Origin: Actinomycetospora corticicola
GTDB lineage: Bacteria > Actinomycetota > Actinomycetes > Mycobacteriales > Pseudonocardiaceae
Length of the DNA stretch: 64,000 nucleotides
Direction of reading: 5' to 3'
Assembly (NCBI RefSeq): GCF_013409505.1
Contig: NZ_JACCBN010000001.1
Coordinates: 5,146,001 to 5,210,000 of the forward strand
Shown here: positions 32,772-59,857 of the stretch, one piece after another
Numbering within the stretch: position 1 is the stretch's first letter
Layout: every line of letters starts with the position of its first letter
The notes under the pieces: model-generated
Told to the model about the DNA's origin: nothing
What the model saw: the letters and a program-made list of their open reading frames with translations, nothing else
Databases searched by the model: none
Made by a program: the position numbers and the translations under genes

Positions 32772-32828
32772 GTGACAGGAAAGCGTCGTTGCTGTCACCA
32801 GGTGACAGCAACGACGCTTTCCTGTCAC
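32772..32828. repeat. 57-nt palindromic element, copy A (perfect)
   Basis: A perfect inverted repeat: two 28-base arms around a single A at 32800. Each arm begins GTGACAGGAAAGCGTC and ends GTTGCTGTCACC, and each arm alone can also fold, because GTGACAG pairs with CTGTCAC. It lies between the convergent PAP2 and methyltransferase genes, 18 and 12 bases from their stops. A bidirectional terminator role is likely. Confidence 0.9.
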
Positions 32829-32839
32829 GGAGGGGCGGC

Positions 32840-33583
32840 TCAGACCGGGGCGCTCGCGTCGACCACGCGGATGCCGCCGAGGGAGCGCTCCGAGACGCCC
32901 GACCACCCCAGGTCGCGCAGCGCGCCGGCGAGGTCGCCCGGGCCGAAGAGCCGGGCCTGACCCCAGCGCGCGAACATCTCGGTGAACGGCCGCAGCGGCC
33001 CCGGGGCGTGGGCCGGCACCGCGAACGCGGCCGCGCCGGCGGGCCGCAGCACCCGGGTGATCTCGGTCAGCGTGGTGACGAGGTCGGGCACCAGGTGCAG
33101 GCAGAGCGAGCACGAGACGGCGTCCACCGCCGCGTCGTGGAAGGGCAGGTCCATCGCGTCGGCGCGGACGAAGTCCACCTGGGCGAAGGCGGTGGACCGG
33201 GCGGCGCGCGTGAGCATCGGCTCCGACAGGTCCACGCCGATCACGAGGCCGTCCCGGCCGACGGCGCGGGCGAGCCGCCGCGTCAGCGTGCCCGGCCCGC
33301 AGGCGAGGTCGAGCACCGTCTCCCCGCCCACGAGGCCGAGCCGGTCGTCGACCCGGTAGAACGCCCGCAGGTTGCCGCCGCCGACCAGGGCGGGGACGTA
33401 GGCCTCCACCTGGTCGCCGAGCGCGAGCAGCCCGTCGTACCCGCCCGCCCCGGACGTGCTCTCCCAGGCGTCCTGGATGCGTCCCCGGGACCCCGGCCGG
33501 CCCCGCACCAGATCGAGCCAGGGACCGGTGACGTCCGCGGGCTCCTCGGTGAGCAGGGCCAGCAGCCGGTCCCGGGCGCTCAC
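32840..33583 (-). CDS. SAM-dependent methyltransferase
   Basis: 247 residues. Motif I is VLDLACGPGTLTRRLARAVG, followed by VIGVDLSEPML, DAMDLPFHDAAVDAVSCSLC and EITRVLRPAGAAAFAVPAH. This is the ubiquinone/menaquinone methyltransferase-like (type 11) group. GTG 33583 overlaps the WS/DGAT stop by 4 bases, so the two are translationally coupled. Substrate unknown; a lipid is plausible from context. Confidence 0.85.
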   Translation of the reverse strand: MSARDRLLALLTEEPADVTGPWLDLVRGRPGSRGRIQDAWESTSGAGGYDGLLALGDQVEAYVPALVGGGNLRAFYRVDDRLGLVGGETVLDLACGPGTLTRRLARAVGRDGLVIGVDLSEPMLTRAARSTAFAQVDFVRADAMDLPFHDAAVDAVSCSLCLHLVPDLVTTLTEITRVLRPAGAAAFAVPAHAPGPLRPFTEMFARWGQARLFGPGDLAGALRDLGWSGVSERSLGGIRVVDASAPV

Positions 33584-35067
33584 GACGCGTCCGCGCCGTA
33601 CAGGGCGTGGAACTCCTCGGCGATCAGGTCGACCAGCCGCGACAGGTCCGGCACGAGCCGGGCGCACGACACGAGGCCGATGTCGACCGACCCGTCGTAG
33701 CTCTGCACCGTGATGTTGAGTCCCTGGCCGTCGGCGACCGCGCTCACCGGGTAGTAGTGGCGCGCCCGTGCCCCGGACATGTACAGCGGCTCCTGGGGGC
33801 CGGGCACGTTCGAGATGATCACGTTGAACGGCACGAGGCCGCGGGCGGCGGTCCGCGTGGTCACCCGGCTGATCAGCGTCGTCAGGGCCGGGACGCCGAG
33901 GCCCGCGCCCTCCGGCGCGAGCGCGCCCGGCGTCGCGCGGAAGACCGCCTTCGCCGTCTGCAGGGCCTGGTGGGCGGCCGCGAGGCGCTCGGTCCGGTCG
34001 GCGACGTCGGTGGGCAGCGAGGCGACGGTGGCGGAGACCCGGTTGGTCCACATGTCCGGCTCCTCGCCGGTTCGCAGCGACACCGGGATCATCGCCGAGA
34101 GCGGGGCGTCGGGCAGCGCGTCGCGCTCGAGCAGGTAGGTGCGCAGTGCGCCGGAGCAGGCCGCGACGACGACGTCGTTGACCGTGGCGTCGTGGTCCTT
34201 CCCGGCCGCCTTCACCTCGTCCAGCGACACCGAGCGGCGCGCGAACCGTCGGTAGCGGCTGATCGGGGCGTTGAACGGTGTCGCCGGAGCCGGGGTCGAG
34301 GGCAGGCGCGGGGATTCCGCGTCGGCGTCCCGGGCCCGCCCGACGTTGAGCACGGCGCCGATCTGCCCGCGCAGGCTGCGCCGCACCCGGTCGGCGAGAT
34401 CGATCACGGCCGGGTGCCGGGTGGCAGCGGCGACCTGCTGGCCGGCCTGCGCGGCGAGGAGCAGGGCGCGGCCGGGGCGCTGCACGCCGTGCCACGCGGC
34501 GCGCCCGAGCAACCCCGGGTACGACGGCGGGTCCTCCGGGCTCCAGCGGCCCGCGTCGGAGGGCCGCTCGGCGTCCGGGACGTCGTCGAGCATGAGGGTG
34601 AGCAGCTCGGCGCCCGAGGCCCCGTCGATCGCGGCGTGGTGGACCATCGTCAGCAGGGCGAACCGGCCGTGCGGGGCCTCCTCGGTCGCCGCGAGGCCCT
34701 CGATGACGTGCGAGACCCACAGCGGGTGCTCGCGGTCCATCGGGCCGGCGATGAGCCGGCCGACGAGCTCGTCGAGCTGGGCGTCGTCACCGGGCGGCGG
34801 GACGGCGGAGTGCCGGACGTGGAAGTCCAGGTCGAAGTCGGGGTCGGAGATCCAGTACGGGTGGTCCAGACCCAGCGGCACCTCGACCAGGCGCCGGCGC
34901 AGGGGCTCGAGCAGGTGCAGCCGGTCGGCGAGCTGACGACGCCAGGCCGTGAAGGGCTCGTAGTCCGGGTCCGGCTTGTCGAACACCACGAGCTGGCTGA
35001 CGTGCATGAACTGGTGGTCGTCCTCCGCGGCGAGGAACACCGCGTCCAGACCCGACAACTGCTGCAC
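33580..35067 (-). CDS. Wax ester synthase/diacylglycerol acyltransferase (WS/DGAT)
   Basis: 495 residues. The catalytic motif HHAAIDGAS (HHxxxDG) follows the N-terminal VQQLSGLDAVFLAAEDDHQF. Other family segments are DHPYWISDPDFDLDFHVRH, VNDVVVAACSGALRTYL, VPFNVIISNVPGPQEPLYMS and DGQGLNITVQSYDG. The enzyme makes triacylglycerol or wax esters from acyl-CoA. GTG 35067 is chosen because GGGAGGAG precedes it. The methyltransferase is coupled downstream. Confidence 0.9.
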   Translation of the reverse strand: MQQLSGLDAVFLAAEDDHQFMHVSQLVVFDKPDPDYEPFTAWRRQLADRLHLLEPLRRRLVEVPLGLDHPYWISDPDFDLDFHVRHSAVPPPGDDAQLDELVGRLIAGPMDREHPLWVSHVIEGLAATEEAPHGRFALLTMVHHAAIDGASGAELLTLMLDDVPDAERPSDAGRWSPEDPPSYPGLLGRAAWHGVQRPGRALLLAAQAGQQVAAATRHPAVIDLADRVRRSLRGQIGAVLNVGRARDADAESPRLPSTPAPATPFNAPISRYRRFARRSVSLDEVKAAGKDHDATVNDVVVAACSGALRTYLLERDALPDAPLSAMIPVSLRTGEEPDMWTNRVSATVASLPTDVADRTERLAAAHQALQTAKAVFRATPGALAPEGAGLGVPALTTLISRVTTRTAARGLVPFNVIISNVPGPQEPLYMSGARARHYYPVSAVADGQGLNITVQSYDGSVDIGLVSCARLVPDLSRLVDLIAEEFHALYGADAS

Positions 35068-35326
35068 GCGTCTCCTCCCACCGGCCCCGACGCCCTGTGG
35101 GCAGGAGTGTGGTCGGTGCGAGGAGCAGCGGCCAGTCGGACGATCACCGATCACGGAGAGCGAAATCCGGTCACGCGGCGTATCACCGGGTCGGCGGCTC
35201 AAGAAATCCGGACGTCACCCGTAACGGTGGTGGACCGGGCGCGTTAGGCGCTGCGAGTGGTCACGCCGCCGTGTGTCGGGGGACAGCGGAGGACCCGCGG
35301 ACGACCCGCTCCCGGAGAGGAACCCC

Positions 35327-35941
35327 ATGGCCCGCCCTCGCCACGCCATGCGTGTGCACCCGCTGCGCTCCAAGGGCGTCGTCGTCGGCGTCCCGGTGGC
35401 GGCGGCGGTCGCGTTCGGCGCGCACTCGGTGCTCGGTGTCACCCCTCTCTCCGACCAGCAGGACGCCCCGGCGACGAGCGCCGCCGCGGCCCCGGTCCAG
35501 AGCTACGGCCTCGCGGCGACCCCGCCGCCCACCACGCTCGACCTGCTCTCCGCGCCGGGCGACCAGACCTCCGCCGGATCGATCCCGACGACGGGTGCGG
35601 GCTCGCAGGCCCCCACGACCACCACGACGAAGATCGTCGGTGACCGGGCGGCCGCCCCGACGCGCACCGAGCCGATCGCCGCCGCGGCACCGGCCGCCGC
35701 CCCGTCGATGATGACGTTCTCCGGGGCCGGCCAGGCCGCACCGCAGGCGCCGCAGGCCCGCCCGGCCGCGGCCCCCGCCGTCGCGCAGGCCGCTTCCCAG
35801 CAGGACGCGCCGGAGCAGACCGCACCGCCGCAGCAGTCGGACGACTCCGACGGCGGGTCGCAGCAGCAGTCGGGCGGCGGGGCGCTGCTCGGCCTCGACC
35901 TCGGCGTCGCGAAGGTCTCGGTGCTCTCCTTCGGGCAGTGA
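35327..35941 (+). CDS. Secreted or anchored Ala/Pro/Gln-rich protein of unknown function
   Basis: 204 residues. The basic start (RPRHAMRVHPLRSKG) leads to a hydrophobic stretch (VVVGVPVAAAVAFGAHSVLG), then a long low-complexity region with Thr runs, IPTTGAG and Gln-rich blocks, closing with a short conserved-looking end (LLGLDLGVAKVSVLSFG). No known domain is seen. ATG 35327 has GGAGAGG upstream. It is likely exported and extended. Confidence 0.6.
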   Translation: MARPRHAMRVHPLRSKGVVVGVPVAAAVAFGAHSVLGVTPLSDQQDAPATSAAAAPVQSYGLAATPPPTTLDLLSAPGDQTSAGSIPTTGAGSQAPTTTTTKIVGDRAAAPTRTEPIAAAAPAAAPSMMTFSGAGQAAPQAPQARPAAAPAVAQAASQQDAPEQTAPPQQSDDSDGGSQQQSGGGALLGLDLGVAKVSVLSFGQ

Positions 35942-35978
35942 TCGACCGCCGGATCGGCGTCCGGAAGGATGCCGGTCC

Positions 35979-36857
35979 ATGAGCAAGGCCCTCGACGAAC
36001 TCGTCGGCGACGTCCTGGACCTCGAAGCCATCGAGCGCGACATCTTCCGCGGCCGCAGCCCGCAGGAGTCGCTGCTGCGCGTCTTCGGGGGACAGGTCGC
36101 CGCGCAGGCCATGGTGGCCGCCGGCCGCACCGTCGACGACGAGCGCCCGGTGCACTCCCTGCACGGCTACTTCCTGCGTCCCGGGGATCCGTTCGCGCCG
36201 ATCGTCTACGAGGTCGACCGGGCCCGGGACGGCCGGTCCTTCACCACGCGCCGGGTCACCGCGGTGCAGCACGGCGAGACGATCTTCACGATGTCCGCGT
36301 CGTTCCAGCGCCCCGAGGAGGGCGTGGAGCACCAGGCGCCGATGCCCGAGACTCCCGGCCCGGACGGGCTCGCCCGCCGCGACATGCCGCCGGTGCCGGC
36401 GGACCGCCCTGCCTGGACGACGACGGGCAAGGCCCTGACCTGGCCGCTCGACGTGCGCTACGTCGACCACGCGCCCTGGGACGACACCACCGACCGCCCG
36501 CCGCGCAACCGTGTGTGGATCCGGGCCGACGGCGAGCTGCCCGACCCCGCCGTCCCGGGCGGGCGCCTGCTCCACGTCTGCGTGCTCACCTACGCCAGCG
36601 ACCTCACCCTGCTCGAGGCCGCCGTGTTCCCGCACGTGCAGGGCGGCGCCGCGGCCCGCGACGTCAGCCTCGCGAGCCTCGACCACGCCGTCTGGTTCCA
36701 CCGGCCGTTCCGCGCCGACGAGTGGCTGCTCTACGTGCAGGAGTCACCCAACGCGGGCGGCGGGCGCGGCCTCGCGTCCGGTCGGCTCTACCGCGCGGAC
36801 GGGACGCTGGTGGCGAGCGTCGTGCAGGAGGGCCTCATCCGGCGCCGCCGCCCCTGA
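35979..36857 (+). CDS. tesB: Acyl-CoA thioesterase II
   Basis: 292 residues, double hotdog. Typical segments are FGGQVAAQAMVAAGRTV, LHGYFLRPGDPFAPIVYEVD, RSFTTRRVTAVQHGE, then HVCVLTYASDLTLLEAAVFP, SLASLDHAVWFHRPFRADEW and ASVVQEGLIR; the Asp, Ser/Thr and Gln in the last three match the TesB active site. It hydrolyses acyl-CoA to free acid. It ends 5 bases before repeat copy B. Confidence 0.9.
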   Translation: MSKALDELVGDVLDLEAIERDIFRGRSPQESLLRVFGGQVAAQAMVAAGRTVDDERPVHSLHGYFLRPGDPFAPIVYEVDRARDGRSFTTRRVTAVQHGETIFTMSASFQRPEEGVEHQAPMPETPGPDGLARRDMPPVPADRPAWTTTGKALTWPLDVRYVDHAPWDDTTDRPPRNRVWIRADGELPDPAVPGGRLLHVCVLTYASDLTLLEAAVFPHVQGGAAARDVSLASLDHAVWFHRPFRADEWLLYVQESPNAGGGRGLASGRLYRADGTLVASVVQEGLIRRRRP

Positions 36858-36862
36858 CCTTC

Positions 36863-36919
36863 GTGACAGCGAAGCGTCGTTGCTGCCACTGGACGACAGC
36901 AACGACGCTTCCCTGCCAC
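36863..36919. repeat. 57-nt palindromic element, copy B
   Basis: The same element as copy A with a few changes (left arm GTGACAGCGAAGCGTCG, right arm CAGCAACGACGCTTCCC). It lies between the convergent tesB and BVMO genes, 5 and 26 bases from their stops, and pairs well in its central 20 bases. Confidence 0.9.
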
Positions 36920-36945
36920 GTGGGTGGGCGGCACCGGGGAGGTGC

Positions 36946-38478
36946 TCAGACCGGAGCCGGGACCGGCGCCCGACCGGTCGAGTCCGCCGCACCCGTCGTC
37001 GGGACGGCGAAGTCCGAGGACCGGCCGAAGAACTCGTAGTCCTCCGGGCGGAAGCGCCGGGTCTCCGCCCAGTACCGCAGCGTGAAGCCGGGCCAGATGG
37101 TCCGGTTGTTCCCGGCGGCGTCCAGGTACCACGACGTGCAGCCGCCGCGGGTCCAGATGCCCTTCTCCAACCGCTGCATCACCGCCGCGTCGGAGCGCTG
37201 CATGACCTCGGCGCGCACGTCGAGCCCGGAGCAGCCGTAGCCGTGCACCGCGGAGATCGCCTGGGCGACGTAGCGGGCCTGGCACTCGATCATGAACACG
37301 ACGGAGTTGTGGCCGAGGCCGGTGTTCGGGCCGAGGAGGAAGAACAGGTTCGGGAAGTCGGTGACCGTGATCCCGTAGTGCGTCCGCATGCCGTGCTCGG
37401 CCCAGGCGGAGCGCAGCGTGCGCCCGTCCCGTCCGGTGATCTCCAGCCCGTCCATCGAGTCGGTGACGTGGAAGCCGGTGCCGTAGATGATCACGTCGGC
37501 CGGGTGCTCGACGCCGTCGTGGTCGACGACCCCGTGCTCGGTCACCTCGGCGATCCCGCTCGCCACCACGTCGACGTTCGGGCGGGCGAGCGCCGGGTAG
37601 TAGTCGTTCGACACGAGCACCCGCTTGCAGCCCAACGAGTAGCGCGGGGTCAGCCGGTCGACGAGCGCCGGGTCGGAGATCGACCGCTCGATGTGTTTGC
37701 GGGCGATCCACTCGGCGGGTCGGAGCAGCTCGGGGCGGCTCATGAACCCGATGGCGCGGGACTCGAGCCCGGCGTAGAGCGCTCCCCGATAGGCCTTCTG
37801 GATCAGCGGTGCCTTCTCGAAGAGCCGCTTGCGCCACGTGCCGATCGGGTGGTCGCCCTTGGGCAGCACCCACGCGGGCGTGCGCTGGAAGAGCGTGAGC
37901 TGCGAGACGAGCGGGGCGATCTGCGGCACGAACTGGATCGCGCTCGCCCCCGTGCCGACCACCGCGACCCGCTTGCCCCGCAGGTCCACGTCGTGGCGCC
38001 ACTCCGCGGAGTGGAAGGTCTCGCCGCGGAAGCGCTCCGCGCCGGGCAGGGTGGGCTTCGACGGCAGGTGCAGCGCGCCCATCCCGGAGACCAGGAAGCG
38101 GCAGCGGTACTCACCCGTCGTCGTGTGGACCGTCCAGGTGCGCGACTCCTCGTCCCACGTCGCGCCCGTCATCTCGGTGGAGAAGCGGATGAGGCGGCGC
38201 AGGTCGTGGCGGTCGGCGAGCCGCTCGAGGTAGTCGTGGATCTCCGGCTGCGGGGAGTACGAGCGCGACCAGTCCGGGTTGGGATCGGTCGAGAGCGAGT
38301 ACATGTGCGACGGGATGTCGCACGCGCAGCCGGGGTAGGTGTTGTCCCGCCAGGTCCCGCCCACGCCGCGCGGGGCCTTCTCCAGCATGACGACGTCGGT
38401 GATGCCGGCCTCGCGCAGGGCGAGCGCCTGGCCGAGCCCGGAGAAACCGGAGCCGACGATCACGACCTCACTGAACAA
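36946..38478 (-). CDS. Flavoprotein (Baeyer-Villiger-type) monooxygenase
   Basis: 510 residues. The FAD site is VVIVGSGFSGLGQALALREA, the NADP site VAVVGTGASAIQFVPQIA. Between them, FRGETFHSAEW matches the Baeyer-Villiger fingerprint FxGxxxHxxxW with Arg where Pro/Asp usually stands. The C-terminus has IYGTGFHVTD and GPNTGLGHNS. Such enzymes insert oxygen next to ketones or oxidise N/S atoms. The start overlaps the upstream hydrolase gene by 11 bases; the C-terminal tail carries VPTTGAADSTG. Confidence 0.9.
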   Translation of the reverse strand: MFSEVVIVGSGFSGLGQALALREAGITDVVMLEKAPRGVGGTWRDNTYPGCACDIPSHMYSLSTDPNPDWSRSYSPQPEIHDYLERLADRHDLRRLIRFSTEMTGATWDEESRTWTVHTTTGEYRCRFLVSGMGALHLPSKPTLPGAERFRGETFHSAEWRHDVDLRGKRVAVVGTGASAIQFVPQIAPLVSQLTLFQRTPAWVLPKGDHPIGTWRKRLFEKAPLIQKAYRGALYAGLESRAIGFMSRPELLRPAEWIARKHIERSISDPALVDRLTPRYSLGCKRVLVSNDYYPALARPNVDVVASGIAEVTEHGVVDHDGVEHPADVIIYGTGFHVTDSMDGLEITGRDGRTLRSAWAEHGMRTHYGITVTDFPNLFFLLGPNTGLGHNSVVFMIECQARYVAQAISAVHGYGCSGLDVRAEVMQRSDAAVMQRLEKGIWTRGGCTSWYLDAAGNNRTIWPGFTLRYWAETRRFRPEDYEFFGRSSDFAVPTTGAADSTGRAPVPAPV

Positions 38479-39433
38479 GGGACGCTTCCTTCCCGACGAC
38501 CGGTGCGGTGACGCTGGCGGCCTCGACGAGGCCCTGCAGGTGCGCGGCCACCTCCGGCGACCGCTCGAAGGTGATCATGTGGCCGGCGCCCGGGAGGACG
38601 ACCAGCTCGGCGGCGGGCAGGGCCGCGGCGATGGTGTGGGCGTGGTCGATCGGGCAGAGCCGGTCGTTCGTGCCGACCAGCACCACGGTCGGGACGCCGT
38701 GCAGCGACTCGAGCGACGACGTCCGCCGGTGCTCGCCGATCGAGTTCCGGAACGCGAGTACGGCGACCGGGTCGGCCGCGAAGGTCTGTTCGGCCACGCT
38801 CAGCACGTCCGCGCGCCGCGCGTGGCGCCCGAAGACGAGGGCCCGGACGACGGGGGCGAGGGCGATCGAGCGGGCGTGGGTGCCGCTGCCCTCGGGATCG
38901 GCGCGAGCGACCGGCGCGCGGTTCCCCAGCGACGCGAGGAACGGCATGATCGCCCGCTCCCCGTGGGCGACGAAGGCGCCGCGCCGGCCGGGCAGGCCCA
39001 GGGTCAGCTCCGCCATGTCGTCGCTCGCGGTGGCGACGAACCCGGCGCCGACGACGCGCTCGCGGACCAGGTCGGGGTGCCGCTCGGCCAGCGCCATGAG
39101 CGTCATCCCGCCCATGGAGTGCCCGGCGAGGACGATCGGCCCGTCGACGTGGTCGCGCAGCAGGGCCGCCAGGTCGTCGGCGGCGCGGCCGATCGTGGAC
39201 GCGTGCTCGCCGCCGGACTCCGAGCCGCCGTGGCCGCGGTGGTCGTAGCGGACGATCTCGCTCGTCACCCCGGCCCGGCGCAGGTCACGGACGACCCGGT
39301 CCCACGTGCGGAGGTCCTGCGACCAGCCGTGGGCGAGGACCAGGGTGGGGACGCCCGGCGTCAGGACCCCGCTCCGCGCCACCCGCAGGGTGATGCCCGT
39401 GGCGAGGCTGACGGGGCCGACGTTCTCGTTCAT
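38468..39433 (-). CDS. Alpha/beta hydrolase
   Basis: 321 residues. The oxyanion motif LVLAHGWSQD, the nucleophile elbow VLAGHSMGGMTLMAL and the closing His in LPGAGHMITFERSP are clear; the acid is in GTNDRLCPIDHA. In an operon with a BVMO, it would be suited to hydrolyse the ester or lactone product. ATG 39433 overlaps the diiron protein stop (TGATG), with GGAGAAG just before. Confidence 0.9.
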   Translation of the reverse strand: MNENVGPVSLATGITLRVARSGVLTPGVPTLVLAHGWSQDLRTWDRVVRDLRRAGVTSEIVRYDHRGHGGSESGGEHASTIGRAADDLAALLRDHVDGPIVLAGHSMGGMTLMALAERHPDLVRERVVGAGFVATASDDMAELTLGLPGRRGAFVAHGERAIMPFLASLGNRAPVARADPEGSGTHARSIALAPVVRALVFGRHARRADVLSVAEQTFAADPVAVLAFRNSIGEHRRTSSLESLHGVPTVVLVGTNDRLCPIDHAHTIAAALPAAELVVLPGAGHMITFERSPEVAAHLQGLVEAASVTAPVVGKEASLVQ

Positions 39434-40353
39434 CACTTCTCCAGCAGGAAGGACTTCTTCCACAGGGTCTTACCAGGTCCCGCGATCATCCCCGCCTCGT
39501 CCAGGAACGCGAGGATCTTCTCGCCGCCGAAACGGATCATCTCGCGGTGGTGCGGGTTGGCCAGGGCGGCGCGGCGGCCCTCGGCCGGGTCGATGCCGAC
39601 GGCCGCGTAGACCTTCGGGTTGATCAGGCTGCGCACCACGAAGAACGAGGTGAACGCGCACATGAACCGCTGGTACGCGAGCTCGGAGCGGGAGAGTTCC
39701 GCCAGCCCGCGGGTCACCTCGTCCCGCGCGAAGGCGACGTGGCGCGCCTCCTCCATGATGTGGATCCTGTTGACCTGACGCATCAGCGGCTGGATGCGGT
39801 CGTCGTTCGCCTGCTCGCGCTGGAGGCGGTCGAGCACCTCCTCGGCGACGAGGATCGAGGCGTAGGCGGCCGGGCCCCAGTTGACGACCGAGAACAGCTT
39901 GCCGAGCTGGTGCACGAACGGGATCGGGCCGTAGGGCTCCACCCCGGCGCGGTGCACCAGGCGGGCGAACATCTGCGAGTGCCGGCACTCGTCGGCGACC
40001 TCGGTGAGGGCCCACTGGGCGCGCTCGCTCGTCGGGTCGTCGGCGTAGAAGTCCTTGAGCAGCCGCTGCATGAGCAGGGTCTCGAACCACAGGCCGACCG
40101 ACGCGACGCTGCACGCCTCGTGCTTGCCCAGCTCGATCCGCTGCTCCGGGGTCAGGCGCTCCCAGAGCTCCGTGCCGTAGAGCGAGACGCGGTGCTCGGG
40201 GACCCAGATCTTCCCCTCGACCAGCGGCGCATCCCAGTCGATGTCGACGGCCGGGTCGTAGGACTTCTTGGCCGCCGAGCGCAGCAGGCGCGCCGCAGTG
40301 GCGTTCGCGTCCCCCTCGTTGCGGGTGGTCCGGGTCGTGGCGGGCGCCGACAT
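39433..40353 (-). CDS. AurF-like diiron oxygenase
   Basis: 306 residues, mostly helical. Iron-ligand motifs are GKHEACSVASVGLWFETLLM, ALTEVADECRHSQMF and IHIMEEARHVAFARDE, matching the p-aminobenzoate N-oxygenase AurF family (DUF3066). Such enzymes oxidise amines or fatty substrates at a diiron centre. It heads an operon with the hydrolase and BVMO and is divergent from a TetR regulator. ATG 40353 follows GAGAGGA. Confidence 0.8.
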   Translation of the reverse strand: MSAPATTRTTRNEGDANATAARLLRSAAKKSYDPAVDIDWDAPLVEGKIWVPEHRVSLYGTELWERLTPEQRIELGKHEACSVASVGLWFETLLMQRLLKDFYADDPTSERAQWALTEVADECRHSQMFARLVHRAGVEPYGPIPFVHQLGKLFSVVNWGPAAYASILVAEEVLDRLQREQANDDRIQPLMRQVNRIHIMEEARHVAFARDEVTRGLAELSRSELAYQRFMCAFTSFFVVRSLINPKVYAAVGIDPAEGRRAALANPHHREMIRFGGEKILAFLDEAGMIAGPGKTLWKKSFLLEK

Positions 40354-40395
40354 GGCGTCGTCCTCTCGGAGGGTCGAGCGGGGGAGCGAGCTGCG

Positions 40396-40457
40396 GGATA
40401 CGGACTGTATCCCCAACTTGTTGTACGTCTTACCGCTGGTAACCGTAACCGGTGGTA
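40396..40457. promoter_or_regulatory. Divergent promoter with two candidate TetR operators
   Basis: Two inverted repeats lie between the AurF-like and TetR genes: GGATAC-GGACT-GTATCC at 40396-40412 and a 27-base imperfect palindrome at 40431-40457 with half-site TACCNCNGGTNAC. The second ends 12 bases before the regulator start. Their position suggests binding by the TetR protein to control both operons. Confidence 0.6.
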
Positions 40458-40469
40458 GCGTCTTCGCCC

Positions 40470-42066: not shown

Positions 42067-42086
42067 TGCCCGGGCCGCCCGTGCCG

Positions 42087-42231
42087 CCGCGAGGTGTACG
42101 TCAGGCAGGTTTCCGGACGTCCGGGCCTGCCTGGCGTGAGTCTCGCGGCGGGCTGGTTGGTGGCCCGTGCGGCGAGGTGTACGTCAGGCAGGTTCCCGGA
42201 CGCCGGGGCCTGCCTGATGTGAGTCTCGCGG
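42087..42231. repeat. Two hairpin units spaced 83 bases between convergent genes
   Basis: Copies at about 42087-42148 and 42169-42231 share nearly all bases. Each has nested pairing: GCGAG/CTCGC at the base, CAGGCAGG/CCTGCCTG in the middle and CCGGAC/GTCCGG at the tip of copy one. The pair lies between the convergent 41545 and 42275 genes and should act as a double bidirectional terminator. Confidence 0.8.
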
Positions 42232-42274
42232 TGGAGTCCCCGGCGGACGGGATCTTCCCGACGGCGGGTGGGGT

Positions 42275-46806: not shown

Positions 46807-46811
46807 GCGTG

Positions 46812-47021: not shown

Positions 47022-47047
47022 GGCCGGGGGATGACCGCTCTCCGGCG

Positions 47048-48831: not shown

Positions 48832-48838
48832 CATCTGA

Positions 48839-48893
48839 TGGCAGGAAAGCGTCGTTGCTGTCACGGCATGACAGCAACGACGCTTCCTGCCAC
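48839..48893. repeat. 57-nt palindromic element, copy C
   Basis: Arms start TGGCAGGAAAGCGTCG and end ACGACGCTTCCTGCCA around a short centre (CACGGCATG). It lies between the convergent dinB and ABC transporter genes, 7 and 10 bases from their stops. Confidence 0.9.
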
Positions 48894-48903
48894 GAGAATC
48901 TGG

Positions 48904-52231: not shown

Positions 52232-52261
52232 GGCGGGCGCCGGCGGGGTAGACCCTCCGGC

Positions 52262-53863
52262 GTGAGTCTCACTGTGCGCGACGCCGCGCTCGAGCTGTTC
52301 CGGGCGCACGGCATGACGACGGTCTTCGGGAACCCGGGCTCCACCGAGCTCCCGATGCTCCAGGACTTCCCCGACGACTTCACCTACGTCCTCGGGCTCC
52401 AGGAGGCGGTCGTCGTCGGCATGGCCGACGGGTTCGCGCAGGCGACCGGTCGGCCGGCCCTGGTCAACCTGCACACCGCGCCCGGCGTCGGGAACGCGGT
52501 GGGCGCGCTGGTCAACGCGGCGGCCAACAGGACCCCGCTCGTGGTCACCGCCGGCCAGCAGGTGCGGCCGATGATGACGCTGGAGGCGATGCTCGCGAAC
52601 CCGCGGGCCTCCGAGCTCCCGCGTCCCACCGTGAAGTACTCGGCGGAGCCGCCCCGGGCCCAGGACGTCGTCGCGACCCTGGCCCGGGCGATCCACCTCG
52701 CGACCACCCCGCCCACCGGCCCGGTGTTCGTGTCGATCCCGATGGACGACTGGGACGTCGAGCTGACCGGCGACGACCTCGAGGTGGCGCAGCGGGCGTC
52801 CCGACGACGGGTGACGGCGCCGCTCGCGCCGACCGGTCTCGAGGCGTGGGTCGCCGCGCTCGACGGCGCCTCCGCCCCGGCGCTCGTCGTCGGCGGGGAG
52901 ATCGACTCCGGCGGCGGCTTCGACGACGCCGTGGCGCTGGCCGAGCGCCTGGGCTGCGCGGTCTACGGCCCGCCCGCCGACGGCCGGGTCGGGTTCCCGG
53001 AGAGCCACCCGCAGTTCCGCGGCGCGCTGCCGATGGCCATCGCGCCGGTGTCGCAGACGCTCGCGGCGCACGACGTGGTGCTCGTGCTCGGCACCGCGGT
53101 GTTCCGCTACTACCCCTACGTGCCCGGCGGGTTCCTGCCCGAGGGCACCACCCTGCTGCACGTCACGTCCGACCCCGACGAGGCCGCCCGCGCGCCGATG
53201 GGCGACGCGCTCGTGGCCTCCCCGGTCGCCGTCGTGCGCGCGCTGCTGGACCAGGTCGCCCCGTCGTCGCGCGTGCCCGCCGGGTCCGCGCCGTCCGCGG
53301 CAGCCGCCCGGGCATCGGCCGTCCCGGGCACCCTGACCGCCGAGGCGGTGTTCGACGTCGTCGGCTCGGTGTGGCCGGCCGACGGGGTGGTCGTCGACGA
53401 GTCACCCTCGAACCGTGGCGCGCTGCACGCGCGCCGTCCGGTCTCCCGCCCGTCGACCTCGTTCTTCACGACGTCGGGTGGTCTCGGCTTCGGTCTGCCC
53501 GCGGCGGTCGGCGTCGCGCTGGCCGACCGGTCCCGGCCCGTCCTCGCGGCGATCGGTGACGGGTCGATGCAGTACGCGATCCAGGCGCTGGCCTCGGCCG
53601 CGATGCTCGGCGTGCCCGTGACCGTGCTCGTCCTGGAGAACCGCGAGTACGCGATCCTCAAGTGGTTCGCCGCCCGGGAGAACACCCCGAAGGCGCCCGG
53701 CCTCGACCTGCCGCCCGTCGACTTCGGCGCCCTCGCCGCGGGGTACGGGGTACCGGCGGAGTCGGTGTCGACGGCCGAGGAGCTGCGCGCCGCCCTGGAG
53801 CGTGGGCGTGACGGCGACGGGCCGCGGCTGATCGCGGTGCCGGTCGGCCGCGCGGCGAGCTGA
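52262..53863 (+). CDS. mdlC: Thiamine diphosphate enzyme, benzoylformate decarboxylase-like
   Basis: 533 residues, the three-domain ThDP fold. The N-domain has TTVFGNPGSTELPML and LQEAVVVGMADGFAQATGRP (catalytic Glu), and the C-domain has GDGSMQYAIQALASAAMLGV plus LVLENREYAILKWF for the ThDP-binding GDG...N motif. MdlC decarboxylates benzoylformate in mandelate breakdown; related enzymes take other 2-oxoacids. No other mandelate gene is adjacent. Start GTG 52262. Confidence 0.85.
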   Translation: MSLTVRDAALELFRAHGMTTVFGNPGSTELPMLQDFPDDFTYVLGLQEAVVVGMADGFAQATGRPALVNLHTAPGVGNAVGALVNAAANRTPLVVTAGQQVRPMMTLEAMLANPRASELPRPTVKYSAEPPRAQDVVATLARAIHLATTPPTGPVFVSIPMDDWDVELTGDDLEVAQRASRRRVTAPLAPTGLEAWVAALDGASAPALVVGGEIDSGGGFDDAVALAERLGCAVYGPPADGRVGFPESHPQFRGALPMAIAPVSQTLAAHDVVLVLGTAVFRYYPYVPGGFLPEGTTLLHVTSDPDEAARAPMGDALVASPVAVVRALLDQVAPSSRVPAGSAPSAAAARASAVPGTLTAEAVFDVVGSVWPADGVVVDESPSNRGALHARRPVSRPSTSFFTTSGGLGFGLPAAVGVALADRSRPVLAAIGDGSMQYAIQALASAAMLGVPVTVLVLENREYAILKWFAARENTPKAPGLDLPPVDFGALAAGYGVPAESVSTAEELRAALERGRDGDGPRLIAVPVGRAAS

Positions 53864-53926
53864 GCCCGTGTGGTCACCCGGTATCGAGATGCCCCGCCCG
53901 CCGATCTCCGCGTAGCGTCGCGGGAC

Positions 53927-54943
53927 GTGTCGACCCAGACGCATCCCACCTCCACGTCCACCGACGCCGGGCCGTCCGTCCCGCCCGCCGTCGAGGTCGT
54001 CGACCTGGTGAAGCGCTACCCCAAGGCCACGGTCAACGCCGTCGACGGCATCTCGTTCGCCGTCGCGCCCGGCGAGGTGTTCGGCCTGCTCGGCCCGAAC
54101 GGCGCGGGCAAGACCACCACCATCGGCGTGCTCACCACCCGCGTGCGCAAGACCTCCGGCTCGGCGACGGTCACGGGCATCGACGTGGCCGAGGACCCGG
54201 TCGGCGCGCGCTCGGTGATCGGCGTCGTCCCGCAGCGCCCGAACCTCGACCGCAGCCTCGACGCCAGGGGCAACCTCGTCTGGCACGCCGCGTACCACGG
54301 TGTCCCGCGCGCCCGGCGCGGTCCGCTCGCCGACGAGCTGCTCGAGCGGATGGGCCTCTCCGACAAGGCGCACACCAACCCCGACGAGCTCTCCGGCGGC
54401 CAGGCGCAGCGGCTGATCATCGCGCGCGGCCTCATGCACGACCCGCGGGTGCTCTTCCTCGACGAGCCGTCCACCGGCCTCGACCCCCAGGCGCGCCTGT
54501 TCGTGCACGACCGGGTCGTCGAGCTCGCCGCGAACGGGGTCACCGTCGTGCTCACCACGCACGACATGGACGAGGCCGCCAAGCTCTCCGACCGCGTCGG
54601 CATCGTCGACCACGGCGAGCTGCTCAAGCTCGACACGCCCGCGAACCTCGTCGCCGGCCTCTCCGGCTCCGCGACCGTCGACCTCGACGTGACGGGCGTC
54701 GACCCCGAAGCGCTGCGCCGCCGCCTCGCGGAGGTCCGCGGGACCGCGGGCGTCGAGGTGCTCGCGGTTCCCGACGAGGGGCCGGCGCGGCTGCGCATCC
54801 GCGTCGACGGGGAGGCGGGGGCCGCGCTGCCCGGCCTCGTCGAGGAGGTCACGACGGCGGGTGGACGCGTCTCCGACGTCGGGCTCGGCGAGCCGACGCT
54901 GGAGGACGTGTTCATCGACCTGACCGGGAGGGGACTGCGGTGA
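53927..54943 (+). CDS. ABC-2 type exporter ATPase (DrrA-like)
   Basis: 338 residues. Walker A is LLGPNGAGKTTTIGVLTTR, signature ELSGGQAQRLIIARGLM, Walker B VLFLDEPSTGLDP, H-loop TTHDMDEAAKLSDRVGI, and a C-terminal extension with a DUF4162-like end (EPTLEDVFIDLTGRGLR). It pairs with the permease gene, overlapping by 4 bases, in drug- or lipid-export systems of the DrrAB type. GTG 53927. Confidence 0.9.
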   Translation: MSTQTHPTSTSTDAGPSVPPAVEVVDLVKRYPKATVNAVDGISFAVAPGEVFGLLGPNGAGKTTTIGVLTTRVRKTSGSATVTGIDVAEDPVGARSVIGVVPQRPNLDRSLDARGNLVWHAAYHGVPRARRGPLADELLERMGLSDKAHTNPDELSGGQAQRLIIARGLMHDPRVLFLDEPSTGLDPQARLFVHDRVVELAANGVTVVLTTHDMDEAAKLSDRVGIVDHGELLKLDTPANLVAGLSGSATVDLDVTGVDPEALRRRLAEVRGTAGVEVLAVPDEGPARLRIRVDGEAGAALPGLVEEVTTAGGRVSDVGLGEPTLEDVFIDLTGRGLR

Positions 54944-55797
54944 CGCGCAGCGAGGCGGAGCCGGAGCGGGCTGCGGTGAGCACCGATACGACGACCGGGT
55001 CGACCGAGGTCGAGCCGTTCCGCCGCGTGTCCCCGGGGCGGGCGTTCCTCGGGGTGCTGGGCCGCGACGTCGCGGTGACCGGCAAGGAGCTGGGCAGCTT
55101 CATCTCGCAGGTGCTCGTGCAGCCGTTCTTCCTGCTGTTCGTGTTCGGGAAGGTGCTCTCCCAGCTCGGCTACATCGCGCCGGGGTACGCCCAGCTGCTG
55201 CTGCCCGGCCTGCTCGCCCTGAACGCGTTCCTCGTGGCGGTGCAGGCGGTGGCGCTGCCGCTGGTGATCGACTTCAGCTACACGAAGGAGATCGAGGACC
55301 GGCTGCTGGCGCCGCTGTCCACGCGGATGGTCGCGGTGGAGAAGATCGTGTTCGGCGCGATCCGGGGGCTGATCGGGTCGCTCGTGATGATCCCGGTCGG
55401 CTACCTGGTGCTCGACGAGGTCTCGTGGGACCTCTCCGGCCTGCCGCTCTCGGCGCTGCTGCTGGTCCTCGGTGCCCTCGCGGGCGGCGCGTCCGGCCTC
55501 GTCATCGGCACGTCGGTGAGCCCGCGCCGGATCAACATCGTGTTCGCCGTGGTGATCACCCCGCTGCTGTTCACCGGCTCGACGCAGTTCCCGTTCCTGC
55601 AGATCGGGTCGCTGCGCTGGTTCCAGGTGATCTGCGCGCTCAACCCGATCACGTACGTGGCGGAGGGGCTGCGCGGCGCCCTGACCCCGCAGATCCCGCA
55701 CCTGCCCGGGTGGCTGTGCGTCGCGGCGCTGGTGCTCGCCTGCCTGCTGTTCGGGGCGATCGGGATCCGCGGGTTCGTCCGTCGCGCGCTGGACTGA
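54940..55797 (+). CDS. ABC-2 type permease (DrrB-like)
   Basis: 285 residues with about six helices. Segments such as VLVQPFFLLFVFGKVLSQLG, LNAFLVAVQAVALPLVIDF, EDRLLAPLSTRMVAVEKIVF and FQVICALNPITYVAEGLRGA are those of ABC-2 membrane proteins. It forms the channel for the ATPase encoded just upstream. GTG 54940 overlaps its stop. Confidence 0.9.
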   Translation: MTRSEAEPERAAVSTDTTTGSTEVEPFRRVSPGRAFLGVLGRDVAVTGKELGSFISQVLVQPFFLLFVFGKVLSQLGYIAPGYAQLLLPGLLALNAFLVAVQAVALPLVIDFSYTKEIEDRLLAPLSTRMVAVEKIVFGAIRGLIGSLVMIPVGYLVLDEVSWDLSGLPLSALLLVLGALAGGASGLVIGTSVSPRRINIVFAVVITPLLFTGSTQFPFLQIGSLRWFQVICALNPITYVAEGLRGALTPQIPHLPGWLCVAALVLACLLFGAIGIRGFVRRALD

Positions 55798-55810
55798 CCT
55801 CCCCCTCGTC

Positions 55811-55867
55811 GTGACAGCGAAGCGTCGTTGCTGCCACTGGCCGACAGCAACGACGCTTTCCTGCCAC
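55811..55867. repeat. 57-nt palindromic element, copy D
   Basis: Nearly identical to copy B (start GTGACAGCGAAGCGTCG, end CAACGACGCTTTCCTGCCAC). It lies between the convergent permease and wrbA genes, 13 and 11 bases from their stops. Confidence 0.9.
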
Positions 55868-55878
55868 AGCGGTGCGGC

Positions 55879-56481
55879 TCAGGACCCCGCGGACAGCTTC
55901 CCCGCCACCTGCGCGAGCCGCGTCCCCTGGACCCGGGCGGCGCCGAGCGCGTCGTCGTCGGGGGCCGCGGACTTCTTCGCCACCCAGGACGCGCCGTAGG
56001 GGTTCCCGGTGGACATCAGCGACGGGTCGGCCGCGTAGCCGAGGGGCATGATCAGCGTGCCCCAGTGGTAGAAGGTCATGTTCATCGCCACGGTCGTCGT
56101 CTCGAGCCCGCCGTGCCCGGTGGAGGCCGAGGTGAACGACGTGCCGACCTTGTCCGCGAGCTTGCCCTGGGCCCAGAGCCCGCCGGTGGTGTCGAGGAAC
56201 GCCTTGAGCTGCTCGGCCGCGCCGCCGAACCGGGTCGGGCTGCCGAGGGCGATCCCGTCGGCCCACTCGAGGTCGTCCAGGGAGGCGACCGTGTCGTACG
56301 GGTTGTCGTCCACCCACGCCTTCCACCGGCGGTTGGCCTCGATCGCCTCGCGCGGGGCGCGCTCGGCCACCGGCCGCACCCGGACCTCCGCCCCCGCACC
56401 CCGGGCGCCCTCCGCGAGCGCCTCGGCGAGCGCGGCGACGTTGCCGGTGGCGGAGTAGAAGACGACGGCGATGTTGGCCAC
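55879..56481 (-). CDS. wrbA: NAD(P)H:quinone oxidoreductase, WrbA type
   Basis: 200 residues, flavodoxin fold. The FMN phosphate loop is VVFYSATGNVAALAEALAEG, then IALGSPTRFGGAAEQLKAFL, TSFTSASTGHGGLETTTVAM and MPLGYAADPSL. WrbA reduces quinones by two electrons and protects against redox cycling. GTG 56481 follows GGAGG on its strand. Confidence 0.9.
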   Translation of the reverse strand: MANIAVVFYSATGNVAALAEALAEGARGAGAEVRVRPVAERAPREAIEANRRWKAWVDDNPYDTVASLDDLEWADGIALGSPTRFGGAAEQLKAFLDTTGGLWAQGKLADKVGTSFTSASTGHGGLETTTVAMNMTFYHWGTLIMPLGYAADPSLMSTGNPYGASWVAKKSAAPDDDALGAARVQGTRLAQVAGKLSAGS

Positions 56482-56552
56482 GGGGCCCTCCTGGACGACG
56501 GGGATGTCCTGATCACCCTCTCGCGCACGCCCGCGCGCGGCACACTGGACCG

Positions 56553-57884
56553 GTGGCGGTGACGAACGGCCTGACGACGGGCTCCGCGCGGACGGTGTCC
56601 GACCCGCCCGCCGAGACGTTGCGCGGCCTCGTGCTGCTCCACCGGCGGATCTCCGGGCTCGCCGCGGCCGACGACGGGCCCGCCGCCGTGACGCGCCTGC
56701 TCGCCGACCAGCTCGGCGCGGTCGCCGCGGTGGTCGGCGCCGACGAGTCCCGCCCGGTGCTCGCCGCCTCCGCGCCGGGGGTGGACGACGCCCGCGCCGC
56801 GACGGTGCTCCGTGCCGAGCTCGCCGAGCCCCGGTGGGCCCGGGTGCTCGACGCGGCGCGGCGTGGCGCGCGGGCGATGCGGGTGCCGGGCCGCGGGACG
56901 TGGGTGCGGGTCGTCGTGCCGGTCGAGGTCGCGGGGGAGACCGCGGCGGTGCTGATCGCCGAGGAGGACCCGGCCGACCGCTCCCGCCCCGCCGCCCTGG
57001 ACGGCAGCGCCGCCGACGACGTCCTGCTCCTCGCCGCCGAACACGCCGCGACGATCGTCGGCGTGCTCCTCGGCCGCGAGCGGGTGCTCGCCGCGGCCGC
57101 CGGGCAGGTGCGCGACGACCTGCTCTCCGGGCTCCTGCTCGGCCGCGCCCGCTCGACGGGCGAGGCGGCGCAGTGGGCCGAGCACCTCGGCCTCGACGTC
57201 CCCGGCGCCCGCGTGATGGCCCTCGTTCCCGACGACGGGGCGGTGGCGGGTCTGCTCGCGGCAGCCCGCGAGCGGCTCGGCCGGCTGGTCCCCGACGTCC
57301 TCGCCGTCCTGCGCGACAGCGAACTCGTCGCGGTCGTCCCCGCGGGCGTCGACCCCGACGACCTGGCGGCCCGGCTCGCCTCGGGCCTCGTCCGCGGCGG
57401 GGGCCGCTGGCCGGTGACGGTCGGGCTCGGGCGGGCCGTCGCCGACCTCGCGGGGCTCGCCCGCTCCTACGACCAGGCCCGCCGCACGGTGGAGGCCGCC
57501 CGCCGGCTCGGCCGGGAGGGCCGTCTCGTGCGCTTCGAGGACCTCGGCGTGCACCGGCTGCTGCTCCAGGTCCCCGACCCGGAGGACGCCCGGACGTTCG
57601 CCCGCGAGGTCCTGGGCCGGCTGGTCGACGACCCGTCGGGCCGCGCGGGCGAGCTGGTCCGCACCCTCGCGCGCTACTTCCGGGAGGACGGCAGCCCGCA
57701 GCGCACCGCCCGGGCGCTCTCCGTGCACCCGAACACCATCGGCTACCGGCTGCGGCGCGCCGAGGAGCTCTCCGGGCTCGTGCTGGACCACTACTCCGAC
57801 CGGCTCGCCGCGCAGGTCGCCCTGGAGATCCTCGGCTACATGGACGACGGGGCCGACGCCACCGACGGGACCGGCCGCCGATGA
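56553..57884 (+). CDS. PucR/CdaR-type transcriptional regulator
   Basis: 443 residues: a GAF-like N-terminal part (RLLADQLGAVAAVVGADESR to VPVEVAGETAAVLIAEEDPA), a GGDEF-like middle domain (GRWPVTVGLGRAVADLAGLA) and a C-terminal helix-turn-helix (TLARYFREDGSPQRTARALS, VHPNTIGYRLRRAEELSG). PucR proteins act as activators of nearby catabolic genes. It overlaps the next gene by 4 bases (ATGA), so it is co-transcribed with the homocysteine/MTHFR fusion. Confidence 0.85.
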   Translation: MAVTNGLTTGSARTVSDPPAETLRGLVLLHRRISGLAAADDGPAAVTRLLADQLGAVAAVVGADESRPVLAASAPGVDDARAATVLRAELAEPRWARVLDAARRGARAMRVPGRGTWVRVVVPVEVAGETAAVLIAEEDPADRSRPAALDGSAADDVLLLAAEHAATIVGVLLGRERVLAAAAGQVRDDLLSGLLLGRARSTGEAAQWAEHLGLDVPGARVMALVPDDGAVAGLLAAARERLGRLVPDVLAVLRDSELVAVVPAGVDPDDLAARLASGLVRGGGRWPVTVGLGRAVADLAGLARSYDQARRTVEAARRLGREGRLVRFEDLGVHRLLLQVPDPEDARTFAREVLGRLVDDPSGRAGELVRTLARYFREDGSPQRTARALSVHPNTIGYRLRRAEELSGLVLDHYSDRLAAQVALEILGYMDDGADATDGTGRR

Positions 57885-59857
57885 CCTTCGCCGACGCCCT
57901 CGCCGCCGGGACCCTGCTCGGCGACGGGGCCATGGGCACCCTTGCGCAGGCCACCGGCGCCCGCGCCGAGGGTGCGGTGAGCGAGCTCGTCCTGCTGGCC
58001 CCGGAGCTGGTGGGCGCCCTGCACCGGCGCTACCTCGACGTCGGCGCCGACGTGATCCAGACCCACACCTACGGTGCGAGCCGGTTGCGGCTGGCCCGGC
58101 ACGGCCTGGCGCGCCAGGTCGGGGAGATCAACGTGGCGGCCGCGCGGCTCGCCCGGGAGGCGCGGGACGAGGCGGGCCGACCGGCCTTCGTCGCCGGGTC
58201 GATCTCGCCGGCGACCTCCCCGCGGATCGCCGGCCCGGTCGAGGCCGCCGCGGTGCGCGCCGCCCTGCGGGAGCAGGCCGACGCACTCGCCGAGGGCGGC
58301 GTCGACGTGCTGGTGTGCGAGACCTTCGCCCACGCCGAGGAACTGGCCGAGGCCGTGGAGGCCGTGCGGGCGGCGACGGACCTCCCGGTGATCGCCCAGG
58401 CCACCTTCATCGAGGAGGACGGCGGGCCCGTGACGACCCACGGGGAGACCCCCGAGGACGTCGCCCGTGTGGTCGGGGCGCTCGGACCGGTCGCCCTGGG
58501 CTCCAACTGCACCCTCGGCCCGCAGGGCCTGCTCACCGTAGTCCGCCGCCTGGCCGCCGCGGTACCCGACGGGATCGCGGTGACGGCGCTGCCCAACGCC
58601 GGCCTGCCGCACGTGGTGTCCGACCGCAGCGTCCGCTTCGCCTCCGACGCGGCCCACTTCGGCCGCTACGCCGCGCGCTACGTCGCGGCCGGGGCCCGGC
58701 TGGTCGGCGGCTGCTGCGGCACCACCCCCGCCCACGTGGCCGCGGCTGCTGCGGAACTCGCGCGCGGTCCCGTCGTCGACGAGCCGCCGGCGCTCCCGAT
58801 CGTGCGTGGCGTCCCGCTCCGTGGCGACGACGTGGCGTTCCTGCCACTGGATGACAGCAACGACGTTTCCCTGCCACAGGGGGCGGGACTGCCACGGGGA
58901 GAGGGAGCGGCGGTCGGGGCAGGGCGGGAGGGCCCCGGCCGCGGCGCGGTCGCCCGGTGGCTCGACGCGCCCCGACGGACCCCGCTGCTCGTCGCGGAGG
59001 TGACCGGGCCGGGGGCCGACGACCTCGACGTCCACGTCGCGCGCGGCCGCGCCGCGCTGGCGGCGGGCGCCGCGGCGCTGTGGGCGGGGCGGGAGCGGGC
59101 CCGGCGGCGGCGGACCACGACGGCGGGGGTGGCCGCCGGGGTGCACGAGGCCCTCGACGTGGACGTCGCGCTCACGGTGACCAGCTGGAACACGAGCCGG
59201 ATGGCGTTGCAGGCCGACCTGCTCGGCCTCGACGCGCTCGGGCTGCACACGATCGTCACCGAGACCGGCAACCCGCCCGTCCACGCCGACCGGGCGGTGC
59301 GCGACGGCGTGTGGGAGGTCGACGCGGTGGGCCTGGTCGGGCTGGCCGCGTCCCTGACGGCCGGGGTGGACGCCGACGGTGCCCGCCTCGCGCCGACGCC
59401 GTTCCGGGTCGGGGTGCGCGTGACGTCCGGGACCGACGACCTCGACCGCGAGATGCACCGGGTGCGTCTCAAGGTCGAGGCCGGCGCGGAGTTCCTGGTG
59501 ACCCGCCCGGTCTACGAGCTCGACCGGCTCCGCCGCGTGCTGGCGGGGGCCGGGGTCGACGTCCCCGTCCTGCTCTCGCTCGCGCCGCTCTCGGGGTTCG
59601 CCGAGGCGGAGCACCTGCGCCACGAGGTCCCCGACGTCGTCCTGCCCGACGCCGTCCTCGCCCGCGTCCGCGCGGCCGGCGAGGACCCCGCCCCCGGCCT
59701 GGACCTCGCGGCCGAGCTGGCCGCCGAGGCCCTGGCCGAGGGGCTGGTCCACGGCCTCGTCGTGCGGCGCCCCGGCCCGCCCGAGCTGCTCGCCGAGGCG
59801 GTCACGCGACTCGGCGCGGTCCTCCGCGCGTCCGCCGGTCAGCTGGGTCGGCGGTAG
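57881..59857 (+). CDS. Bifunctional homocysteine S-methyltransferase / methylenetetrahydrofolate reductase
   Basis: 658 residues, YitJ-like fusion. Domain one (1-300) has LLGDGAMGTLAQATGA, VIQTHTYGASRLRLARHGLA and zinc cysteines in LGSNCTLGPQG and GGCCGTTPAHV (near 210 and 277-278). Domain two (about 350-650) is MTHFR-like: GLDALGLHTIVTETGNPP, VKVEAGAEFLVTRPVYELD-like and PVLLSLAPLSG. The protein probably makes methionine and supplies the methyl-folate. The linker (residues 314-332) is encoded by repeat copy E. ATG 57881. Confidence 0.8.
   Translation: MTFADALAAGTLLGDGAMGTLAQATGARAEGAVSELVLLAPELVGALHRRYLDVGADVIQTHTYGASRLRLARHGLARQVGEINVAAARLAREARDEAGRPAFVAGSISPATSPRIAGPVEAAAVRAALREQADALAEGGVDVLVCETFAHAEELAEAVEAVRAATDLPVIAQATFIEEDGGPVTTHGETPEDVARVVGALGPVALGSNCTLGPQGLLTVVRRLAAAVPDGIAVTALPNAGLPHVVSDRSVRFASDAAHFGRYAARYVAAGARLVGGCCGTTPAHVAAAAAELARGPVVDEPPALPIVRGVPLRGDDVAFLPLDDSNDVSLPQGAGLPRGEGAAVGAGREGPGRGAVARWLDAPRRTPLLVAEVTGPGADDLDVHVARGRAALAAGAAALWAGRERARRRRTTTAGVAAGVHEALDVDVALTVTSWNTSRMALQADLLGLDALGLHTIVTETGNPPVHADRAVRDGVWEVDAVGLVGLAASLTAGVDADGARLAPTPFRVGVRVTSGTDDLDREMHRVRLKVEAGAEFLVTRPVYELDRLRRVLAGAGVDVPVLLSLAPLSGFAEAEHLRHEVPDVVLPDAVLARVRAAGEDPAPGLDLAAELAAEALAEGLVHGLVVRRPGPPELLAEAVTRLGAVLRASAGQLGRR
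58821..58877. repeat. 57-nt palindromic element, copy E, inside a coding sequence
   Basis: The right half (ATGACAGCAACGACG onward, TTTCCCTGCCAC) differs from copy B at two of 27 positions; the left half agrees with B at 23 of 30. It lies in frame (57 is 19 codons) in the linker between the two domains of the homocysteine methyltransferase/MTHFR fusion, encoding the peptide FLPLDDSNDVSLPQ. The left arm has decayed, so the hairpin is weaker. Confidence 0.85.

Follow-up and report, generated by a model that had tools for sequence, protein, structure and literature searches.

Why should one short palindrome recur between convergent genes of an actinobacterial genome? The question is raised by a 64-kb stretch of DNA (hereafter, the window) from the Actinomycetospora corticicola genome (labelled G000; one contig of 6,166,488 bases, 6.17 Mb), for which an earlier note had described five copies of a 57-nt palindrome. 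According to our analysis, the palindrome (type P) is one of two forms of a genome-wide repeat family. The other form (type A) is an asymmetric, directional module, and both are placed mainly at gene ends. We give an even chance to the interpretation that these gene-end elements form a family of the REP/BIME kind whose maintenance does not involve a known RAYT transposase.

Exact matches to the two-arm pattern GTCGTTGCTG-gap-CAGCAACGAC are found at 30 places in the G000 genome, and to its reversed version at none. A covariance model of type P built from 30 sequences finds 57 genomic places at or above its threshold of 46 bits, after which the next score drops to 38 bits. The palindromes are a family far beyond chance, and the suggestion that the window copies represent a wider repeat was correct. 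Four of them (copies A–D, Table 1) share AGCGTCGTTGCTG and its reverse complement without any difference, and within the window the exact core is found in P copies only. Copy A is indeed a perfect palindrome, save its central base, and the unit is, as the earlier note had it, an inverted pair of self-complementary arms in the manner of REP/BIME elements. Conservation also exceeds the needs of pairing: 15 of the 33 stem pairs are invariant among the 30 aligned sequences, a count that is partly circular because these were chosen by the exact core, and 12 pairs are changed on both sides against 11.3 in shuffles. Along the genome the P copies are clustered at 5.18–5.51 Mb (16 in 350 kb; matched by 0 of 2000 random sets).

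The fifth copy, E, was placed correctly in the earlier note but is not a palindrome copy. It has the core in just one arm, is situated within a gene in minus-strand orientation, and scores 38 bits with the P model compared with 71.9 bits with the sequence model of type A (R2, built from 21 sequences, copy E among them). Together with six other weak P-model places (30–38 bits) it was examined, and all seven match R2 at 58–72 bits. Two P places (4305984 and 5447058) score high with R2 too and may be A/P hybrids. Taken by itself, the arm core GCGTCGTTGCTGYC is present at 138 places in the genome, against one for its reverse, which exceeds what the palindromes account for. Twenty isolated hits of this core were fetched and have a common layout of a C-rich stretch, GTGGCAGSAAAGCGTCGTTGCTGTC, ATCCA and GTGGCAGNNANGCCACATCGTCG with a few differences each, the locus L278 being the most diverged. 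At least 101 R2 matches in G000 do not overlap a P copy; they are not clustered along the genome, and two pairs of them lie 3 and 9 nt apart. A diverged module of a second spelling in the window (Table 1) closely follows a TAG stop. Neither this directional form, nor the in-frame copies, nor the different spellings in related species described below were part of the earlier note.

The isolated cores also bear on the idea that the elements are DNA uptake sequences set as inverted pairs at gene ends. Uptake sequences have a short core that stands in inverted pairs behind genes, and the layout seen here resembles that arrangement. However, the 20 isolated hits that were fetched, out of 138 core hits that also include those in P, all belong to type A elements, one of them diverged, and none is bare; in the window, where the exact core is confined to P copies, no bare in-gene cores were seen. 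The probability of this explanation is very low.

The placement of the elements was evaluated using gene calls from a codon-usage model (shadow-frame) trained on the G000 genome, not taken from annotation. The reference for intergenic gaps comprised 284 kb (220 kb of spaced stretches and the window, element copies included) with 148 co-directional, 58 convergent and 53 divergent gaps, the convergent ones making up 4733 of 22695 intergenic bases. The four window palindromes lie between convergent stops at the 5–26 nt noted before, the distances from core to the two called stops being 17/11, 5/26, 6/9 and 13/11 nt for A–D. All 57 P copies were examined, and 28 of the 41 intergenic ones are convergent (p = 8e-11 by bases against the sampled gaps), 11 are co-directional and 2 divergent, while 16 fall inside a called open reading frame (ORF). 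Most co-directional copies are also within ~20 nt of a stop. A sample of 44 P copies, from 40 loci with the best scores among the matches listed for three relatives, includes 17 convergent, 17 co-directional and 10 inside copies, with none divergent.

The convergent share is higher in P than in type A (p = 8e-7). Among the 50 of 101 type A copies that were examined, 27 have a same-direction gene on both sides and 7 a same-direction gene followed by a convergent one; the others are reversed (6), divergent (5) or inside genes (5). A same-direction gene thus ends upstream in 34 of the 50, at −2 to 76 nt from the element, with 31 copies at no more than 25 nt and 29 at 8–21 nt. Within co-directional gaps, 27 copies are oriented with the genes and 6 against them (p = 3e-4). 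The 12 nt preceding the element contain 60% C in type P (n = 57) and 58% C in type A (n = 53), compared with 42% after 202 other stops.

We read the basic unit as a directional module in which a C-rich stretch is followed by arm X (23–27 nt, self-complementary), then by a short linker, in many cases ATCCA, and by a half Y that ends near ATCGTCG; it typically starts ~8–21 nt after a stop codon. A single module (type A) would serve one transcript. Between convergent genes, two facing modules, either whole (~130 nt) or reduced to two X arms (P, 57 nt), would be arranged such that both transcripts meet one. Type P would then have arisen from two type A modules facing each other, each of which lost its Y half. 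This origin is suggested by whole inverted A pairs standing where G000 has P, at sites B and D in G002 and at site D in A. soli, and by the two close A pairs within G000 itself. A role at transcript 3' ends is likely: P would form a very stable hairpin in both transcripts, with the expected effect of terminating, pausing or protecting them, and ribosomes that terminate just upstream may be affected too. In E. coli, REPs located no more than 15 nt from a stop codon have been reported to stall ribosomes (PMC12306157).

The nearest relatives by a polymerase gene are other Actinomycetospora species (protein identity up to 93%). The G000 model of type P, with both-strand matches halved, counts at least 75 copies in G013, 57 in G000, 44 in G008, 42 in G002, 15 in G005 and 9 in G009, no more than 6 in the remaining genomes and none in 3 of 18. 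A lack of matches to this model is not an absence of the class, and a related composite element was recognized by eye at site B in G016. Sites A–E were compared in six relatives, with anchors found for only some species at B, C and D (Table 1). By our reading, A. soli holds at most a remnant at site A; no element was seen at site B in G017, nor at site E in A. termitidis, A. endophytica and G009.

The spelling of the arm differs between species. The arm word GCGGCCATGCTGAC is present 68 times in A. termitidis, 1–4 times in five of the 18 genus genomes and not at all in 12, G000, G002, G005, G008 and G013 included (reversed controls, 0–1 per strand). Eleven of the 68 sites were examined, and six of these start 10–17 nt after a same-direction stop. 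Other spellings (the second arm of G002 and A. soli, and those of G005, G010 and G016) are each based on one to a few sites. Nine arm forms, including two from G000 and one from Pseudonocardia, differ in sequence and are all self-complementary, with 9–12 of 11–13 positions pairing. Four cousins of the element were observed within 21 kb of Pseudonocardia sp. TRM90224 (L105:5067, 12189, 16253 and 20100; arm GGGCAGGAAAGCCACTTTCCTGCCC or close).

Positions are often shared: 27 of 43 P copies of the relatives have the same place as a P copy of G000 by one or both flanks, and both flanks match in 26 of 32 orthologous pairs (flanks 87%). The identity of the elements is 0.855 between orthologous copies (32 pairs), 0.844 between non-orthologous copies of different species and 0.82 within a genome. 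Orthologous copies are hardly closer than non-orthologous ones, which suggests concerted evolution. Copies would be replaced and homogenized within each genome, giving rise to species spellings, with some of them in frame in genes.

Such in-gene copies were surveyed among 103 distinct P copies (59 found by pattern in G000, 44 in relatives), 22 of which lie in called ORFs. Twelve of these are flanked by coding signal on either side; a single phase, which reads GRKASLLSPGDSNDAFLP, is used in 11 of the 12, and the consensus has one further open phase. The 12 are not all independent since two loci (L023 and L223) are orthologous, as is also evident from their codon position. A Pfam scan of ten carriers (nine of P and one of A) placed the element between Pfam domains in four: BTAD/AAA, FMN-oxidoreductase/NAD-binding, PMT_2/YkcB_C (where the coding signal beside the element is weak) and S-methyltransferase/MTHFR. 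The last is the gene of copy E, with the domains at residues 12–292 and 410–625 and a weak coding signal beside the element (2.9 before and −1.7 after, 30 codons). One copy lies inside the AMP-binding domain of a ligase, one after a glycosyltransferase domain and one before a GGACT domain; three carriers had no Pfam match. At the ligase site a palindrome-like insert was seen by eye in all eight close orthologues, each time spelled differently (the A. termitidis copy has GCGGCCATGCTGAC), and it is absent from two more distant homologues. Differently spelled in-frame inserts at one place in eight orthologues suggest that the palindrome is kept as DNA while coding protein. At another in-gene site, L128, the element is present in five species and the site is empty in G009.

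Folding of the window P copies with their flanks gave RNA structures of −39 to −68 kcal/mol (z −3.5 to −11.0), all four better than shuffles and copy A the most stable (−68.4 kcal/mol, z −11.0). Four type A copies were folded, and only copy E (z −4.2) surpassed its shuffles.

Several points weigh against a common system acting at transcript 3' ends. In the other three type A copies folding does not surpass that of shuffles (z −0.2, −0.5 and −1.8), and TTTT was absent from the 12 nt downstream of all 57 P copies, as well as of 53 type A copies. Among the G000 copies, P shows weak covariation (score 0.130 versus 0.113 shuffled, reached by 16 of 500 shuffles) and type A none above shuffles, so that covariation cannot serve as proof of RNA structure. 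Sixteen of the 50 examined type A copies and 5 of the 11 A. termitidis sites are not preceded by a same-direction stop, and in-gene copies are unable to act as terminators where they stand. The gene caller over-extends some ORFs at their starts; the counts of copies inside genes were rechecked by the coding signal on both sides. Among all spellings other than that of G000, a single one was counted genome-wide, and the low memory of sites could alternatively reflect saturation of the few free positions under a fixed consensus.

A classical intrinsic terminator does not fit these results, because three of four type A copies are not folded beyond shuffles and no TTTT follows P or A. The view that the copies are ordinary intrinsic terminators, alike through shared base composition, is in line with the position after stops and with the stable P hairpins of the window, but is contradicted by exact cores whose reversed form occurs nowhere in the genome, by the asymmetric type, by copies within genes and by the species spelling; we consider it highly improbable. 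Recognition would probably be sequence-specific and mediated by a trans factor, as most tested type A copies fold like shuffles and P has no U-tract.

Sequence-specific recognition could also take place at the DNA level, with a protein binding the arm core and blocking RNA polymerase at gene ends or organizing the chromosome. A conserved sequence with little or no covariation, the weak folding of three of the four type A copies folded and the clustering of P all speak for this model. However, there is no candidate protein, none having been searched for, and respelling of the whole family would require co-evolution of many sites. Moreover, the nine listed forms keep self-complementary arms, a property not required of a plain binding site, and type A copies are unclustered. 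Such a mechanism appears improbable, if less so than ordinary terminators.

The link to RAYT transposases proposed in the earlier note is unsupported. The Y1 transposase family PF01797 has no match in G000 or in any of the 18 genus genomes surveyed, of which 15 have a completeness of at least 90%; the same search was positive in 5 of 14 control genomes. Neither GTAG nor CTAC occurs in the 30 aligned P rows and 21 aligned A rows, short flanks included. A search of Rfam with 27 kb containing all five sites returned one match (E 3.7), far under the cut-off and outside the elements; no curated RNA family matches the elements. As regards spread by viruses, a 16-nt core was found once in each of 21 viral contigs, a count that has no chance figure for comparison.

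A selfish, non-autonomous element, mobilized in trans by an unrecognized transposase and found near stops because selection tolerates it there, is a possible but less probable explanation than the one we prefer. It is consistent with presence and absence at shared sites (site C is empty in A. termitidis and L128 in G009, and by our reading A. soli has a remnant at A and NBRC 106378 at C), with in-frame copies that separate Pfam domains in four of ten scanned carriers, and with a G000-model copy number of 0 to at least 75 between species. On the other hand, no Y1 transposase was found in the 18 genomes and no autonomous parent was seen in a search limited to PF01797. Insertion does not seem to be frequent, because most sampled positions (27 of 43) are shared between species. 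Tolerance alone does not account for the direction of type A (27 versus 6) or for its tight distance to stops.

Returning to the REP/BIME-like family of gene-end elements, we tentatively suggest a RAYT-independent system in which ~150 scattered elements are rewritten together into a species dialect while keeping fixed positions, even in coding sequence; we hold this broader proposal to be possible rather than probable. A REPIN-like population in a genus where no RAYT was found in 18 genomes would imply another copying engine, or repeats rewritten by selection through a shared factor. If true, a factor of a new kind would be at work in trans, copying or recognizing the elements; it would evolve together with its sites and read a gene-end signal that has a direction. 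The P/A pair couples symmetry to gene layout (two-way versus one-way), and this makes the old question of REP-like function at gene ends directly testable.

Table 1. Elements and neighboring genes in the window (positions in nt of the window) and the state of each site in relatives.
Feature	Position	Strand	Context and score	Same site in relatives
Diverged type A, second spelling (arm GTGCAAGCAAAGCGTCACTGCTTGCAC)	27101..27165	+	co-directional gap; R2 32.4 bits	
PAP2-family gene, left of copy A	32089..32754	+		
Type P copy A	32772..32828	.	28+1+28 palindrome between convergent stops; P model	P in NBRC 106378 and G002; variant palindrome in G009; other spellings in A. termitidis and A. endophytica
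Acyl-CoA thioesterase gene, left of copy B	35979..36857	+	match in 17/18 genomes, own included	
Type P copy B	36863..36919	.	acyl-CoA thioesterase gene / FMO-like gene, convergent	P in A. soli; A + P in NBRC 106378; inverted A pair in G002
Type P copy C	48839..48895	.	Y-family DNA polymerase gene / ABC transporter gene, convergent	P in A. soli and G002; short remnant (our reading) in NBRC 106378; empty in A. termitidis
Type P copy D	55811..55867	.	ABC-2 permease gene / flavodoxin-like gene, convergent	P in NBRC 106378; inverted A pair, other spelling, in A. soli and G002; none in G009
Called gene carrying copy E	57881..59857	+	658 codons; element in frame, codons 313-332	
Type A copy E	58819..58887	-	R2 71.9 bits; P model 38 bits	P in NBRC 106378 and G002; partial element in A. 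soli

Other repeats were observed in the same material. In a convergent gap of the window there is a distinct repeat of two 66-nt hairpin units (42086-42234) that are 89% alike and separated by 83 nt, and the window also contains a unit of ~85 nt (TGGCGGATCCGTSGCACTGGATGCGTC...) repeated three times in tandem in an intergenic gap (~29908-30160). Another palindrome, CACGTGCGTGATCTTCTGAGCTATAGCTCAGAAGATCACGCACGTG or close, is common to relatives (L259:14485-14528 and 19433-19476; L265:4507-4556; L032:4103; L033:19634; L036:19967), as well as a further hairpin family, TTCCCGACGACGGGTCCG...CGGACCCGTCGTCGGGAA or close (L156:4520; L159:17846 and 19705; L027:9343; L029:9713).

No description of this repeat family was found in the titles and abstract beginnings of the open-access literature searched, and its closest counterparts are to be sought among known repeats. 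REP, BIME and REPIN elements are short self-complementary units in inverted pairs, mostly extragenic and present in tens to hundreds of copies (PMC8266576, PMC8049555). REPINs are described as being duplicated by RAYT transposases, and the palindrome of such elements is preceded by a conserved tetranucleotide, GTAG in most cases. The present family resembles them in having inverted self-complementary units at high copy number (57 P and at least 101 A). It differs in that no RAYT/Y1 gene was found in 18 genomes and no GTAG in 30 P and 21 A sequences, and also in its directional asymmetric form, its in-frame copies and the way in which fixed sites are spelled differently from species to species. 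Rickettsia palindromic elements are likewise palindromic and lie in frame in unrelated genes (PMC10969869), but are ~150 bp long. Judged by description, they are set apart from the unit found here, which is 57 nt long and has most of its copies at gene ends.

In mycobacteria, the TRIT element of the RNIE paper is reportedly a conserved terminator-like repeat, a gene-end hairpin with conserved sequence. As an actinobacterial repeated hairpin at gene ends, it can be set beside our family by description only. A TRIT model is mentioned in PMC3526491, in a passage that speaks neither of a P/A pair nor of in-gene copies. PMC8355165 describes terminators and clusters formed by hairpins close to stops, which often lack a U-tract, and reports no sequence conservation within 25 bases of stops. 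The elements of Actinomycetospora share with them the position near stops and the missing U-tract; in contrast, related sequences recur here more than 150 times.

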